DNA of 40,288 nucleotides from a virus. Position 1 is the first letter of the stretch; every line of letters begins with the position of its first letter. Of this stretch, positions 246-40,288 are shown one piece after another. A program made the position numbers and the translations under genes. The DNA lies in the IMG/VR virus record IMGVR_UViG_3300042898_001809, positions 1 through 40,288 of that record; one strand, given 5' to 3'. The notes beneath the pieces are model-generated. The model saw only the letters and a program-made list of their open reading frames with translations. It was not told where the DNA came from and searched no databases.

Positions 246-734
246 ATGGCAGATTTATTAATGAAAATGCCGGTTCCATACGAACCGAAAAGAGTTAACC
301 GATTCATCTTGAGATTCCCTTCTTCATTAGGTATCAACGAATGGTATGTATCGGCAACGTCCAGACCAAAAGCAAAAATTACTTCAGTAGCAATACCGTT
401 CATCAATACATCAACTTATGTTGCCGGTAGATTTGAGTGGGAAGAAATGTCAGTAACGTTTAAAGACCCTATTGGTCCTTCAGCGTCACAAGCGTTAATG
501 GAATGGTTTCGTTTACATGCGGAGTCAGTAACAGGTCGTATGGGATATGCTGCTGGTTATAAAAAAGATATTGAATTAGAAATGTTGGACCCAACGGGTG
601 TTGTAGTTGAAAAATGGATTCTTCAAGGAACATTCTTAACAAACTTAAACTTTGGGGATTTAGATTACTCAAGAGATGACATTGCAACTATCCAAGCTGG
701 TTTAAGAATGGATAGATGTATCCAAGTTTACTAG
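246..734 (+). CDS. gp19: Tail tube protein, T4 gp19-like
   Basis: This 162-residue protein is almost the length of T4 gp19 (163 aa), the subunit that stacks in hexameric rings to form the inner tail tube. The sequence has the family layout: a basic N-terminal stretch ending KRVNRFILRFP, a central segment with WEEMSVTFKDPIGPSASQALMEWF, and a C-terminal half with LQGTFLTNLNFGDLDYS. The ATG at 246 follows an A-rich leader with no Shine-Dalgarno. A terminator-like hairpin about 65 nt after the stop suggests strong separate expression, as expected for a protein needed in many copies. The sheath gene would be expected just to the left, outside the window. The call rests on recognised sequence pattern, length and position. 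Confidence 0.9.
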   Translation: MADLLMKMPVPYEPKRVNRFILRFPSSLGINEWYVSATSRPKAKITSVAIPFINTSTYVAGRFEWEEMSVTFKDPIGPSASQALMEWFRLHAESVTGRMGYAAGYKKDIELEMLDPTGVVVEKWILQGTFLTNLNFGDLDYSRDDIATIQAGLRMDRCIQVY

Positions 735-955: not shown

Positions 956-1705
956 ATGGAAGAATATAGAATTGACCCCACAATCTCATATGATGTTGTG
1001 GAACTACCCTCAAGAGGTATTTTTTACCCAAATAATAAAAAATCACTCAAGGTTGCTTACTTAACCGCAGCGGATGAAAACATATTAGCAGCACCAAATC
1101 TAATTCAAACAAATTCAATTGTAACTGAATTATTGAAAAGAAAAATCTTAGATAAAGATTTTCCAATTGAAGATATGGTTGAGGAGGATAGACAAACTGT
1201 TTTAATTTTTCTTAGAAATACTGCATTTGGTTCGGAATATAGTGTTACTTTAACTGACCCAAAAACCGATTTAGATTTTAAAGCTAATGTTGATTTAAGT
1301 AGTTTAAATTTTAAACCTTTTGATTTAGTTGCAGATAGTAATGGTGAATATTCATATTTTATGGAGAAATCCAAAATTGGAATAACTTTTAAATTTTTAA
1401 CACCAAAACAAGAAACTGAAATATCGGAAATGCAAAAAAGTTGGAATGGTAATGGGTATGCACCTGTTATAACCAAACAGCTTGAAATGATGATTAAATC
1501 TGTTGAGGGTAACAAAGACTTAATGAACATTAGAAATTTTGTTGATAGATTACCGATAAAAGACGGACAAGACTTCAGAAAATACGTTACAGAACAAAGA
1601 CCAGGTATAGACCTTAAACAAACAACAAAAACCCCATCAGGAGAAGATATCCAATTTTATATTGGGTTTGGGGTTGAGTTTTTTCGCCCTTTCTACGGAC
1701 TATAA
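956..1705 (+). CDS. gp26: gp26-like baseplate hub / tail assembly protein
   Basis: This 249-residue protein matches the T4 gp26 base plate family (Pfam 'T4 bacteriophage base plate protein'). Marks are the N-terminal ELPSRGIFYPN, the LTAADENIL motif near residues 42-50, an acidic middle, and a C-terminus ending FFRPFYGL. T4 gp26 (208 aa) acts in baseplate hub assembly. By position, between tail tube and tape measure genes, it also matches the G tail-assembly chaperone of other phages. The ATG follows an A-rich leader. Codons 242-244 read TTT TTT CGC, and an alternative frame stays open for 49 more codons past this stop, so a longer frameshifted form is likely (next entry). Family call fairly sure; the chaperone role is inferred. 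Confidence 0.8.
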   Translation: MEEYRIDPTISYDVVELPSRGIFYPNNKKSLKVAYLTAADENILAAPNLIQTNSIVTELLKRKILDKDFPIEDMVEEDRQTVLIFLRNTAFGSEYSVTLTDPKTDLDFKANVDLSSLNFKPFDLVADSNGEYSYFMEKSKIGITFKFLTPKQETEISEMQKSWNGNGYAPVITKQLEMMIKSVEGNKDLMNIRNFVDRLPIKDGQDFRKYVTEQRPGIDLKQTTKTPSGEDIQFYIGFGVEFFRPFYGL

Positions 1706-1835
1706 GAAAAATCAACTTTCGGAAATTTTATTTCTTGTTAAACGAGGATTCTCTTACGGGGATATAAATTCTATGCCAATTTTTATAAGAAGGTACTATA
1801 TCGATTATATTTTGGAAATGGAAAATCAACAGTAA
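1674..1835 (+). CDS. Overlapping-frame extension of the gp26-like gene (GT/gp51-like tail piece)
   Basis: In the +1 frame relative to the gp26-like gene, reading is open from the TTTTTTCGC site (1679-1687) to TAA 1833-1835. Beyond the shift it encodes 49 residues starting ALSTDYKKNQLSEILFL and containing GFSYGDINSMPIFIRRYYID. A P-site tRNA-Phe moving from TTT (1682-1684) to TTC (1683-1685), with CGC waiting in the A site, would give a 292-aa fusion. A -2 slip gives the same frame with one extra residue. Alternatively, translation could start at TTG 1674 and give a separate 53-aa protein. The segment ends 13 nt before the tape measure ATG, like the T part of G/GT chaperones. In T4, gene 51 follows gene 26. 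The open frame and slippery site are seen; frameshifting is inferred. Confidence 0.6.
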   Translation: MSFFALSTDYKKNQLSEILFLVKRGFSYGDINSMPIFIRRYYIDYILEMENQQ

Positions 1836-1848: not shown

Positions 1849-3756
1849 ATGGCGGATGATAAAAAATTACAACAATTAGCTAGAACCGACCCTAATGGGT
1901 TTGAAAAATATTATAGAAATAATGTTGACCGAAATGCCGATGGAGCAACCATAGCCAGTAAACAATCGTATTATAGAAATGTTGATTTATCATCAATCTC
2001 AAATACCACTAACCCTAAAGGAGGTGATGATGAGCCCTCAAAATCATTTTGGGACCAATTTAATCCTATTAAAAAAGTTGGTGAAATAGGTCAGGCCGCC
2101 TTAGAAACTCAAGAACAAAAGGGTTATATGCCAAGTTTAGAAACTGAATCCATAAAAGCGTCATCATCTTTTAAAGAGTTAATGGATAATATAGGTAATT
2201 TAAAAAATCCATTAAAAGTTGTTGAAAGTATATTAGGAGGACTTGCTGACCAAGCTGAATTATTTTTTACACAACAAACAGAATTACTCGGTGTTATTAA
2301 TAAAAATGCTGGTATAACAGGTGAATTTGCAAAAGATATCAGGGAAGAATTAACTGAAGCAAATCCCGCATTATTAAGAATAGGTATTGGTTTTGATGAT
2401 TTAGCAAAAAGTTCAGAAAATTTAGTATCAAATAGTGGTAGATTTTTAACATTAAATAGGGATTCATGGTTGGAGGCTGGAAAAGCGGCAACAGCATATG
2501 TTGGAACTTTAGGTGATTTGGTTGCGATGATGCCCCAATTTGAAAAAGTTGGTATAGGGGCCGGTAATGTTGCTGAAAACATAGATGCTGTTGGTAAAAG
2601 GTCATTAACATTAGGTTTACAATCTAAAAAAACAATAGCGGATTTAAACTCTAATTTAAGTAAATTAAATGAATATGGGTTTAAAACCGGTATTAATGGA
2701 TTATCTGAAATGGCTAGAAAGGCAACAGAATTTAGATTAACAATGGAATCGACATTTACAATTGCGGAAAAAGTTATGAACCCGGAGGGAGCAATTGACA
2801 TGGCGGCAAATTTAATGGCTATAGGTGGTGCGATTGGAGATTTAGGTGACCCATTAAAAATGATGTATATGGCGACAAACAATGTTGAGGGACTACAGGA
2901 TGCATTAATAGGAGTTGCGGGGTCATTAGCAACATACAATAAAGAACAGAGTAGATTTGAAATTACAGGTATTAACCTAAGAAAAGCGAGAGCCTTAGCA
3001 ACTGAACTTGGAGTTAGTTACGGTGAATTAGCTAATGGTGCAATTGCCGCCGCTGAAAGGTCAAGTTCCGCAAGTGCATTATTGGCTCGAGGTCTTGATA
3101 TGGATGAGGACACTAAAAGATTTATTACAAATATTGCAACAATGAAAGACGGTAAAATGTCTATTGCGTTGAATAGTGATGAATTACAAAAAATATTTGG
3201 GACTAATCAAATTGATTTAGAAAATTTAAGTCAATCAAATGTGGAACAATTAAAAAAATACCAAGATGAATTTAAAAAATTAACATCTGATGAAATTATA
3301 CAAAAACAAGCCACAAGTGTTGAAAATATAATGAGGGATGTAAACTTCTTAGCGGCTACCGCAAGATTAAAAGTTGCAAAGGAGGGTGGTGGAGCTATTG
3401 AAGCAGTAAAAAAATTCATGGGTTATAATGAAGGGGATTTGGAGAAATTATCAAAGAATCTTGCCGACGGTATAGCTGGTAATAAAGATAGTAAAGATAA
3501 TAAATCTAGTAGGAGAAAAACACCAGAACAACAAGCTTATCTTGATAGGATGAAAACAGGTGGTGCAGATAATTCAGATAAACAAAGACAATTAGAATCA
3601 AACTATGAAAATCAGAATAAAACTACCAAAGTAGAAATGACGATTATAAATAATGTCAATAAAGATAAAATGGCGACTGAACTAGAAAATTCACCGGTGT
3701 TTGTAAAAAATATTATGGACACTCTTAGTAAAGGAGAATATACAAATGTTGGATAA
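1849..3756 (+). CDS. Probable tail tape measure protein
   Basis: The 635-residue product is mostly predicted helix. It has a polar N-terminal 80 residues, a long Ala/Gly/Leu-rich middle (about 140-440) with amphipathic and hydrophobic stretches such as NLMAIGGAIGDLGDP near 318-335, and a charged Lys/Glu/Asn-rich C-terminal 130 residues. Size is close to T4 gp29 (590 aa). At roughly 1.5 angstrom per residue it would measure a tail of about 95 nm, as in T4. It lies directly downstream of the gp26/chaperone-like gene and upstream of baseplate genes, the normal place for a tape measure. No lysozyme or peptidase motif was seen. A structural hub protein is the alternative. Confidence 0.65.
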   Translation: MADDKKLQQLARTDPNGFEKYYRNNVDRNADGATIASKQSYYRNVDLSSISNTTNPKGGDDEPSKSFWDQFNPIKKVGEIGQAALETQEQKGYMPSLETESIKASSSFKELMDNIGNLKNPLKVVESILGGLADQAELFFTQQTELLGVINKNAGITGEFAKDIREELTEANPALLRIGIGFDDLAKSSENLVSNSGRFLTLNRDSWLEAGKAATAYVGTLGDLVAMMPQFEKVGIGAGNVAENIDAVGKRSLTLGLQSKKTIADLNSNLSKLNEYGFKTGINGLSEMARKATEFRLTMESTFTIAEKVMNPEGAIDMAANLMAIGGAIGDLGDPLKMMYMATNNVEGLQDALIGVAGSLATYNKEQSRFEITGINLRKARALATELGVSYGELANGAIAAAERSSSASALLARGLDMDEDTKRFITNIATMKDGKMSIALNSDELQKIFGTNQIDLENLSQSNVEQLKKYQDEFKKLTSDEIIQKQATSVENIMRDVNFLAATARLKVAKEGGGAIEAVKKFMGYNEGDLEKLSKNLADGIAGNKDSKDNKSSRRKTPEQQAYLDRMKTGGADNSDKQRQLESNYENQNKTTKVEMTIINNVNKDKMATELENSPVFVKNIMDTLSKGEYTNVG

Positions 3757-3794: not shown

Positions 3795-6700
3795 ATGCCA
3801 ACTTATTTAGATTTTAATACCAGTAGGAATAAATCAGGAATACCTGATTCTAAGGACGGTTTTAGGGATTACTTAATCGCTAGAACTCTTAATGTACCTA
3901 ATGGTCCTCAAACCTTTACAAGTACAAATTATTCAGTTCAAACACTAAGGGAAATGCCGAACATTGACCCGGGTGATGTTGTGGTTAACAACACAATAAA
4001 TCCAGGTGAAGGAACTAGTAGAGCTTTACAATTAACATCTTTTTCAAACAGTAATATTTTTAAACCTTCACAGTATTTCATTGAAGAAAATTTAAATGTT
4101 TTACCAAGAAGAGCAAACTTAGGATTATATCCTTATTTCTTAAAGTCAGATTATAGTTTAATTGGTATTATGTCAAATTCAGATTATAATAATGAATCTG
4201 AATTAATGAAATTTGCCGCGAGTAATATTAGAGATAATAAACAAGGACCCGTTTTAGCAAGAATCACACAAAATTTAGAATCTTCTACAGTTGGTAGAGT
4301 TAGAGTTATTGATGCGTTACAAGGTAACACCGCAACTGCGTTAAATTTAATAACAGGTAGAGAACCTTTAGTAGAATATAATAACAGAATAACAGTATCT
4401 TCAAATTTATTAGGTAAAGGTATTGATTTTTTACAAACAGTAGCAGGAACTCAATTACCATTTAGTGAGATACCGGGAGATTATTTATCAAATCCAAGAA
4501 ATCCGATTACAAATAGACCTGAATCTAAAACTCAATCCGGTGCAATTTTACAAGACGTAACTGGTGCTATAGGTTCATTAGTCGGTATACAAAGAAGACC
4601 AAAAATCACAAGAAAACCTTCAGATTTATTTATTGAATATATGGGTCAAGGACCAAAACAGGTTCTATTTAACCAATTAACATATTCAAAATATGCTCCA
4701 AATTATACAACAACCGCAAGGTCACAACAATCATCAAAATCATTTCAATTTGTAGACAATATAGGACAAGGTATTAAATCTTTAGTAGGATTAGAAGCGC
4801 CCGCCGGTAAATCGTATATGGGTGATGATAGAAGTAACGATGTTAAAAATACAATGTCCGACTTTAATGACAATGTCGTTAAAAGTAGTTACTATCTAAG
4901 TTTAATGTTTGACCCAATTGCGGCTTCTTTATTTGAAAGAAAAAGAAACATATCTGAAAATGGTAGTATTGGAAGTAATTTAACATGGATTAGTAAGAAC
5001 TCTAAAAGTAAATTAGGTCAATCTACAATAAAAATTCCAGTTGAAGGTGGTGTTAAAAACCCAATGGGATTTTATGAAAAAGAAACTAACACATACAAAA
5101 GAAATGAAGATATGGGTTCTCTTCAAGAATCCTTATCCACAAAATACGGATTTAGACCCGATTCAATCTTAGATAAAACACAACAACTTTTGGATTCAAT
5201 GCCAAAGGATGGAGCCGCATCACGTACGCATGTAGGTAATGTTATTGACCAAACAAGTAGAATATTTAGGGAAGGAGATACGGTGATGTCAAGAGGTTCT
5301 AATATCAAGTATACCGATAAATTTTCGGGAGAAGAGACGGGAGTTGAATACTGTAGAGTATGGACAAAAGATAGAGCATATATGAACCTTTCGGACACCA
5401 TGAAAAGAACGGGAGTTATCCGTAAATTTGATGATAGTGTCATGGGTGGTGGAAGTAAACCGTGGAATTTGAATATTGCTCCAATGTCGGACGGAAATAA
5501 AAATTTTGAAGGAACTTCAACAAATATAATTAAACAAGGAGATGGATTCTACGCTAAAAAATATATGTTCTCAATTGAGAATTTAGCTTGGAAAACATCA
5601 AATACACCAGGATTCACCTACAACGACTTACCATATTGTGAAAGAGGTAACAACGGTGGTAGGGTTATGTGGTTTCCTCCATATGATTTAAAAATTAGTG
5701 AGAACAATAGTGCAAGATGGGCAGATAATACTTTTTTAGGTAGACCCGAACCAATTTATACATATCAAGATACAAGTAGAACAGGACAGTTGTCTTTTAA
5801 AGTTGTTGTTGACCATCCTAGTATTTTAAACTTATTGGTTAGAGAGCACTTTGAAAATATGAGTGATGATGAAGCTGAAAATTATATTAATGCTTTTTTT
5901 GCTGGATGTCAAGAACTTGATTTTTATGCATTAATTAGAAAATACGCACATTTGGATGCTGATGATATATCGTTAATTAGGGCGTTTTTAAATAACAATA
6001 AAGAGCCTGACATGATATTAGAATATATGCCAGCGGTCGAAAGTCCTGTTAATGTAGACCCAAATAACGGTAGTGGTAGTGGTTCGGGAGATAATGGTGG
6101 AGAGGGCGGTACGGAAAACATTGTATTAAAATTTGCAAATGATATACCAGGTTCAAAACTTAAATTGGAATCATCTGGTAAGTATTCTGATTTATACCAA
6201 TCATATATCCCTTTAGGTTCGACTAATTATCAAAATACACTTGTTACCCTTCTACATTCAATGACGGGTAAAACCGATACTCAAATTATTAAAGAAACAG
6301 AATATATTTTTGGTTCAAAAAAAACAAATGGAGCAACACCACCTGTGGTATCATTTACCGATGATGATGTAACCACCCAAAAAGATAAATTGGCAAAAGG
6401 GTTCACGGACGCTCAAACAGATTACGAAAAATTTATTAAAACATTAAATGAAATAAAAACTAATTTAAGTGGTAAGACCGCTCAAGACATAACAATTAAA
6501 ATTGAATCATCATGTTCATCGGCCGATACTGATGATTATAATGCAAAACTTTCACTAAGAAGAAGTCATAGTATAATACAAGATGTATTTGATAAAATCA
6601 AAGCTCCAGGTTCTAATCCCACTATACAATGGATTAATGATATTAAACCAACTGATAAAGATAATTCAGATAATGATAAAGTTATAATACCCGAATTGAG

Positions 6701-39281: not shown

Positions 39282-40288
39282 ATGGCAATAATAAAGATTA
39301 ATACTGGAAATTATGGTGGAGAAACAGCAATAATCACCTTCTATCCTTGTTCAGGCGGAACCATTAATATTGGTACGGTTGTGATGCCATATTATTATGA
39401 AACCGATTATTATCTGGGAACATATTCAGTTTATTTTACAAATTTAGATAAAACTTGTTATTCTGAGGTTGCATGTATAGGACCATCACCAACCCCTACA
39501 ACTACACCAACCGTTACACCTACACACACGGTGACCCCATCTTTTACTCCAACTGTTACACCAACAAATACTTTAACACCCACTCTTACGCCAACTAGCA
39601 CCTTAACGCCAACTAATACGTTAACGCCAACTGTAACGCCAACCAATACCATTACACCGGGAGTATCCTCATCATCAACTCCAACTATTACTCCAACAAA
39701 TACAATTACTCCAACCAATACATTAACACCTACTAACACTATAACACCAACGGTAACCCCCACCAACACGTTGACACCAACTAATACCTTAACTCCCACG
39801 AATACAATTACACCTACTAATACTTTAACTCCAACCAATACTGTTACACCGACAAACACTCTAACTCCAACTCAAACTATTACACCAACAAATACATTAA
39901 CACCAACTGTCACAGAAACACCCACATTGACACCGACTGTCACACTATCACCTACTGTTACCCCAACCAGTGCCCTTACACCAACCAATACTGTTACCCC
40001 AACCAATACCGTTACACCTACCATCACACCAACAAATACAGTAACACCTACAAATACCGTTACTCCAACTAACACGATAACCCCAACAAATACTTTAACG
40101 CCAACTAACACCCTTACACCAACAAATACTATTACACCAACACTAACTCCAACTAATACCGTAACTCCAACAAATACTTTAACCCCCACTAATACTATTA
40201 CTCCAACCAACACTCTTACTCCCACATTAACTCCAACTAACACCCTAACCCCAACAAACACGGTAACTCCAACAAATACCGTAACACC
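39282..40288 (+). CDS. Thr-Pro repeat fibre/adhesin-like protein, partial (right end missing)
   Basis: ATG 39282 (leader TTAAAATTAA) opens a frame that stays open to the window edge, 335 codons. The first 66 residues form a small beta-like head with three Cys ([17 protein letters not shown]), starting [20 protein letters not shown]. From about residue 67 the rest is a Thr-Pro repeat of six-residue units TPTNT(L/I/V), with variants TPTVTP, TPTLTP and one interruption (PGVSSSSTP). Synonymous codons vary strongly between units, so the repeat is kept at protein level. Such Thr/Pro sequences form extended, stiff stalks. By position after baseplate genes it is likely a fibre, whisker or decoration protein. 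The end is not visible, and there is no signal peptide. Confidence 0.8.
39483..40288 (+). repeat. 18-bp protein-coding tandem repeat (TPTNTx)
   Basis: About 45 six-codon units of ACN CCN ACN AAY ACN (CTN/ATN/GTN) type and variants run in frame to the window edge. Thr and Pro third positions change freely while the amino acids stay. The opposite strand is accidentally open over most of this stretch. Confidence 0.9.

Follow-up and report, generated by a model that had tools for sequence, protein, structure and literature searches.

Programmed frameshifting that yields a short (G) and a long (GT) tail assembly chaperone has been described as widespread in tailed phages 'except T4', with -1, -2 or +1 shifts being used (PMC5009743, review). 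Does a phage carrying a gene of the T4 gp26/gp51 family obtain both forms from it, and, if so, in which direction does the ribosome shift? We address this question with a 40,288-nucleotide stretch of virus DNA (IMG/VR record IMGVR_UViG_3300042898_001809, positions 1 to 40,288; hereafter the window), in which a first-pass annotation had proposed a +1 (or -2) frameshift in the gp26-like gene preceding the tape measure gene, together with a unification of the T4 gp26/gp51 pair with the G/GT chaperones. The unification holds but is not new, as judged from PMC12846349 and PMC10885494, and T4 itself has two genes. Those papers credit Vladimirov, Gautam and Davidson (Virology 2022) with identifying the chaperone genes of T4-like phages; they also describe a short gene accompanied by a fused long gene in some T4-like phages (PMC10885494) and poly-T -1 signals in the TAC-N genes of T4-like phages (PMC12846349). 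A +1 form at UUU-Y in T4-like chaperones, with a shared core read in opposite directions, was not found described in these sources. Three things may be new, although part of them may already be in Vladimirov 2022: that the shift is by +1, the site at which it would take place, and a conserved RNA element on its 5' side in the clade of the window. They matter because they would add a +1 mechanism to the recoding known for tail chaperones, within a very large set of T4-like phages from the environment.

Organization of the locus and its overlapping frames

The chaperone gene lies between a tail tube gene, recognized by phrog_4542, and a tape measure candidate, recognized by position, length and the annotation of the immuto phage. 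Its upstream neighbor, a T4 gp19-like tail tube protein (246..734, plus strand), matches the phrog_4542 tail tube profile with E 1.6e-23, and PF06841 with E 1.5e-5, which is under the cut-off of that family. The tape measure candidate (1849..3756, plus strand; 635 aa) is named on position and length only, and no confident family match was found for it with Pfam-type and phrog profiles; its counterparts in relatives have 607-656 aa and start a median of 13 nt past the extension. This order of tail tube, chaperone with overlapping frame and tape measure candidate upholds the G/GT layout proposed at the outset. No second gp26-family gene was found in the window.

The short chaperone isoform (TAC-N, gpG-like; 956..1705, plus strand; 249 aa) belongs to the T4 gp26 family by PF12322 and phrog_150 and ends in GVEFFRPFYGL*, its codons from 1676 to 1705 being GAG TTT TTT CGC CCT TTC TAC GGA CTA TAA (stop TAA at 1703-1705). 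The +1 frame, which reads TTC GCC CTT TCT ACG GAC and onward, is open from a stop at 1608 to the TAA at 1833-1835, and its reading up to that stop is ...SFFALSTDYKKNQLSEILFLVKRGFSYGDINSMPIFIRRYYIDYILEMENQQ*. The candidate slippery site is TTT TTT CGC (1679..1687, plus strand), at which the P-site TTT (1682-1684) would re-pair with TTC (1683-1685), making GCC (1686-1688) the next codon. Base 1685 is thereby taken by the re-paired P-site codon and one base is skipped. The shift would add 49 residues (1686-1832); this T-like extension (1686..1835 with its stop, plus strand) is supported by dN/dS and conserved residues. Conceptual +1 translation yields a long isoform (TAC-NC, gpGT-like; 956..1835, plus strand) of 292 aa, and a 13-nt spacer (1836-1848) separates the +1-frame stop from the ATG at 1849. 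Direct reading of the sequence thus bears out the coordinates and counts of the first-pass annotation. Taken alone, the open +1 frame is unremarkable and could arise by chance: about 2.7% of in-gene +1-frame positions precede at least 43 open codons. It is because the extension is conserved across relatives that we dismiss such an origin.

Several other features of the window deserve mention in their own right. A mini-ORF (approx. 820-924) with a C2H2 zinc-finger-like pattern (CKICKKECDGINSLRGHSIQKH) lies between the tail tube and chaperone genes and is present in only one other locus (L072) among the 29 window-type loci checked. An AT-rich tandem array with units of 15/31/46 nt (TCTAGTTTATTATTT) occupies 6-110, 5' of the tail tube gene, and a long repeat array of period 18/36, ACACCAACAAAT-like, spans the terminal ORFs of the window (39458-40288). 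The element TATTTAT(A), the reverse complement of the T4 late -10 motif TATAAATA, occurs at 1838-1845 and also at 201, 3774, 25946 and 33920. It stands at most 50 nt upstream of 5/21 window genes against 0.4 expected, and, among the matches listed, follows the chaperone extension within 25-60 nt in 26/28 loci of the window type and in 121/121 of the immuto and Mel-JY01 types; it is possibly a late-promoter or processing element. A search of genome contigs for host assignment found no relative.

The extension is under selection in the +1 frame

For comparison, we used 80 IMG/VR loci of the window's clade, whose gp26-like proteins are 69-92% identical, and the best 80 of at least 600 candidate stretches from each of the clades of Flavobacterium phage immuto (MW353176) and Microcystis phage Mel-JY01 (PP395634). 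Removal of duplicates left 157 distinct sequences across the three clades; these are mutually related, and therefore the counts given here are not independent trials. Among the matches listed, relatives keep the overlapping frame: the +1 extension is free of stops throughout the 157 distinct sequences, the one exception being a contig-edge member (L063) with a stop 13 nt from the contig end. The 80 loci of the window's clade retain FFRPFYG(L/I/V)* where the zero frame ends, and they also retain the continuation in the +1 frame.

The extension of the window's clade shows a dN/dS of 0.09 in the +1 frame versus 1.8 and 1.5 in the other two, and no stops in the +1 frame versus 74 and 85 in the others; the gp26 body has a dN/dS of 0.20. 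In the two other clades, where synonymous change is near-saturated, the values for the extension are 0.32 and 0.65, again with the +1 frame lacking stops. Across 49 extensions F, L, Y, P and R residues are invariant, including the conserved P and R of an MPxxxRxxY motif, and the conservation of residues starts at the slip site. In the window's clade, then, the extension evolves as a protein, and does so in the +1 frame only.

The layout with the +1 extension is present in hundreds of environmental phage contigs and in finished isolate genomes. This recurrence in independent contigs, along with the purifying selection on the extension, leaves hardly any probability for a sequencing error that has split a single true frame or for a pseudogene with a dead remnant extension, even if only a single base is involved and the contig-edge member L063 does have a stop. 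Public annotation tends to split the frameshifted chaperone (4854-4964 in MW353176 / L081; 4776-5012 in L082; 'gene 51' in cyanophages): that of immuto places a 36-aa fragment inside the extension and that of the Microcystis phage an overlapping 'hypothetical protein', and the +1 shift is not shown.

The candidate slippery site and the probable direction of the shift

Among the matches listed, 157/157 distinct sequences of the three clades have TTT as the zero-frame P-site codon, with C or T as the next base. The sites of the window's clade are TTTTTTCGC or TTTTTTCGT, with a single TTCTTTCGC (L014), whereas those of the immuto and Mel-JY01 clades (best 80 of at least 600 each) are TTTCTTTGGC, TTTCTATGGC, TTTTTTTGGC and TTTTTTTACC. 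Hence, of the TTTTTTC site first noted, it is the P-site TTT with its following pyrimidine that is always kept, and the T run is not. Among the matches listed, 32/61 immuto-type sequences have TTTCTTTGG and TTTCTATGG, in which the longest T run at the site is TTT. Relatives L346-L357, with TTCTTTTGG, keep the +1-frame extension without a T run. The T-run-free sites of the family are TTC TTT CGC, TTT CTT TGG, TTT CTA TGG and, in L346-L357, TTC TTT TGG. Such T-run-free sites permit +1 re-pairing of tRNA-Phe and no good -2 re-pairing. A +1 slip of the P-site tRNA-Phe from UUU to UUY would thus be a common mechanism that fits all members.

These observations bear directly on the alternative of a Mu-like -2 ribosomal frameshift on the T run, which would add one extra residue. 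The T6 run of the window permits it and such shifts are known from phage Mu (PMC5009743); nonetheless, we consider it very unlikely, because relatives with TTCTTTCGC, TTTCTTTGG, TTTCTATGG or TTCTTTTGG keep the extension without offering a good -2 re-pairing. For the family as a whole a Mu-type -2 shift was rejected, given that the re-pairing is not possible throughout its sites. A -1 shift of the X XXY YYZ type, as used by cyanophage-type relatives, was likewise rejected for the window, where the extension lies in the +1 frame. Loss of a U by RNA polymerase within the T run would also give the +1 frame, and many members do have runs of 6-7 T; this is short for transcriptional slippage, and the 32/61 immuto-type members with no run longer than TTT (among the matches listed) make it highly improbable.

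The role assigned at the outset to a rare CGC codon in the A site stands in part. CGC is indeed rare in the window's main genes, accounting for 4/421 Arg codons versus 315 for AGA, and the slip site is the single in-frame occurrence of TTT-CGC in them; however, the A-site codon varies across relatives (CGC, CGT, TGG, TAC, CTT and CTA).

Could the extension instead be a separate small gene, with a non-ATG start or coupled to the upstream stop, that yields a free protein? The window has TTG codons in the +1 frame before the site (1662, 1668 and 1674), and an ATG-started form of the extension is seen in certain distant relatives (L345, L348, Cygsa01). On the other hand, 49/157 distinct sequences among the matches listed have no ATG, GTG or TTG in the interval from the preceding +1-frame stop to the site. 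In many relatives this stop is one or two codons upstream (TAG AGT TTT TTC; TAG GGT TTT TTT), and at several loci of the window's clade a TAG in the +1 frame directly precedes the site (GGGGTAGAGTTTTTTCGC), leaving no start codon, so that the extension must be entered from the zero frame. The conservation of residues from the slip site onward and the fusion of the corresponding domain to a gp26-like part in T4 gp51 also speak against a free protein, which we regard as improbable. The +1 shift at TTT/CGC, in turn, is supported by both the conserved site and the coding selection on the +1 frame.

A predicted RNA element 5' of the site

A stretch about 9-23 codons 5' of the site shows strong suppression of synonymous change among members of the window's clade, with an observed/expected ratio of 0.17-0.4 against a median of 1.06, and codon 239 is GGG in 30/30 sequences even as GGG makes up 10% of Gly codons. 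The suppressed stretch holds CCCC(N)TCAGGAGA ... GGGGT, and a hairpin predicted here ends 7-8 nt before the P-site codon, with a mean MFE of -15.2 kcal/mol versus -6.2 elsewhere and a mean z of -1.96. In the window, this predicted element (1630..1675, plus strand) comprises an outer stem, ACCCC/GGGGT (1630-1636 with 1669-1675), and an inner stem (1649-1655 with 1661-1667), with TCAGGAGA (1637..1644, plus strand), which includes the Shine-Dalgarno-like AGGAG, lying in the 5' bulge. TCAGGAGA is invariant in 18/18 distinct sequences of this stretch. Covariation in the hairpin was not above that of shuffles and is uninformative because the outer stem is nearly invariant; therefore, the predicted hairpin rests on energy and synonymous constraint.

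Matching upstream constraint was not found in the immuto and Mel-JY01 clades, save for a preference for GGG in the former (40/58 Gly at alignment codon -4 against a background of 6.5%, among the matches listed). A search for a downstream stimulatory structure found none (mean z near 0), and an Rfam search returned no match. A stimulatory role of the predicted 5' hairpin in the +1 shift is plausible because a hairpin upstream of the site raises +1 shifting and lowers -1 shifting by 70S ribosomes (PMC6321510).

Taking these elements together, we advance the following mechanism. Most ribosomes would stop at 1705, producing the 249-aa short form. When TTT (1682-1684) occupies the P site with the rare CGC waiting in the A site, some peptidyl-tRNA-Phe would slip by +1 onto TTC, and translation would resume at GCC in the +1 frame to give a long form of 292 aa whose C-terminus carries an additional helical unit. 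The slippage at the ribosome, its efficiency and the help from the upstream hairpin are what we infer from the sequence, and the two forms would, by analogy with lambda G/GT, coat the tape measure protein and recruit tube subunits.

Relationship to T4 gp26 and gp51

The short form scores 30.6 bits against PF12322 (curated cut-off 24.5). Its match to phrog_150 (E 3.6e-9) stops at profile position 232 of 282, whereas that of the fused long form (E 1.7e-10) extends through position 266. The AF2 model of the short form (pLDDT 87) resembles predicted viral baseplate-hub/gp26 models (best E 6.9e-27) and the hub subunit of SP-15 (E 5.2e-15); a Foldseek search of the PDB with it found no credible match. 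For the extension, a single-sequence AF2 model of low confidence has two helices, suggesting that it may be a short helix-helix unit. T4 gp26 (208 aa, ending in GLKEFFELL) and gp51 (249 aa) are both full-length PF12322 members, with gp51 having a further C-terminal stretch beyond its gp26-like part.

Profile comparison relates the +1 extensions to the -1 extensions of other phages (95.5%, E 1.6e-8) and the latter to the C-terminus of T4 gp51 (96.7%, E 3.8e-10). When the +1 extension is compared directly with T4 gp51 alone, the match is not significant (8% probability; the single gp51 sequence was equalled or beaten by 111/300 decoys), and the link therefore runs via the -1 phages, a two-step chain of which each step is significant. 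With the short form above the PF12322 cut-off, the tie of the gene to gp26/gp51 holds; the extension may correspond to the C-terminal domain of gp51.

DUF6760 (PF20546), presumably a small family located in contractile injection system loci, weakly resembles 6/49 of the +1 extensions (best E 0.003), and no match to it was found for the -1 extensions. Such injection system loci may thus carry the same kind of chaperone unit.

Probable alternative routes to the long form in distant relatives

The layout is kept and a +1 shift needed in SP-15 (TTTTTTCAC), Xanthomonas phage phiXF1 and Pseudomonas phage QdP_Psa3 (TTCTTTCCCTAA). A -1 shift is needed in RAS14 and the huge-phage record LR756511, with the site T TTT TTC/TTT, and, at T TTT TTC, in cyanophages, Aeh1, phiAS5, KVP40-like and rhizobial phages; TTTTTTCG is present in 80/80 cyanophage-type contigs. 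GenBank often labels the extension of the -1 phages 'baseplate hub assembly catalyst' (gp51). Cygsa01, K469, L345 and L348 possess an ATG that could start the extension separately. L345 and L348 carry the extension as a separate reading frame that has an ATG of its own and codes for about 20 or more additional residues at the N-terminus; this arrangement has apparently replaced the frameshift. A separate ATG-started gene, which the first-pass annotation had named as evidence against its proposal, is thus found only in the distant L345, L348 and Cygsa01 and, by duplication, in T4; such relatives are best read as a swap of mechanism rather than as absence of the shift in the window.

The -1 and +1 members share a U6C core, and even the 12-mer GAGTTTTTTCGC. 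We tentatively propose, as a reading that falls somewhat short of likely, that one chaperone family has switched among -1, +1, overlapping-ATG and gene-duplication routes, the direction of the frameshift being set by context. That context might comprise the register in which the run is met, slow decoding of the A-site codon and, for the clade of the window, the upstream hairpin with AGGAG, which would block back-slippage and favor +1. Homologous proteins with nearly identical slippery cores and opposite shift directions offer a natural comparison, and the control of direction is therefore testable with short reporters.

Comparison with known systems

Based on the proposed single-gene frameshift, the homologous -1 extensions and the correspondence to T4 gp26 (short) and gp51 (long), it is very probable that the product of this locus is a tail assembly chaperone of G/GT type that belongs to the T4 gp26/gp51 family, with the long form arising by a +1 frameshift. 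Compared by layout, it resembles lambda G/GT in having a short form, a frameshifted long form and a location before the tape measure gene, while differing in that the lambda shift is -1 (PMC5009743). A +1 frameshift in a tail chaperone is known from the haloarchaeal myovirus HSTV-2 (PMC5009743), and prfB (CUU UGA) and SPP1 gp17.1 (CCC UAA; PMC6316719) also shift by +1 with P-site re-pairing on an overlapping codon; an SPP1-like CCC TAA stands at this very place in the phiXF1 and QdP_Psa3 relatives. A site of the prfB type pairs a P-site slip onto an overlapping cognate codon with slow decoding in the A site and a Shine-Dalgarno helix about 3 nt upstream; the window has the candidate slip and the rare CGC, while its GGGG ends 8 nt from the P-site codon on the 5' side and its AGGAG stands 38 nt from that codon. 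These three systems concern other proteins; in the present case UUU is the common P-site codon, and the A-site codon of the window is a rare sense codon rather than a stop.

The closest comparisons come from the T4-like phages themselves. Cyanophages (S-SM2, Sf-FS3), Aeh1, phiAS5 and KVP40-like phages share the gene order in most cases and have a homologous extension whose frame overlaps at the TTTTTTC core, but reach it by -1 on T TTT TTC, some of them having GAGTTTTTTCGC with the roles of the frames swapped; annotations frequently list this extension as a gene 51 of its own. T4 shares the family with the window (PF12322, phrog_150): gp26 ends at the point where the others shift, and gp51, which is reported to be absent from the particle (PMC3004832), bears the extra C-terminal domain. 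The short and long forms are thus two genes in T4 and, in the window, would come from one gene and a +1 shift. An earlier case of duplication replacing a G/GT frameshift is the two-gene chaperone of phage 0305phi8-36 (PMC2147016), which differs in not being annotated as T4-type gp26. Our analysis likewise supports the view that in T4 a duplication, giving gp26 and gp51, took the place of an ancestral frameshift.
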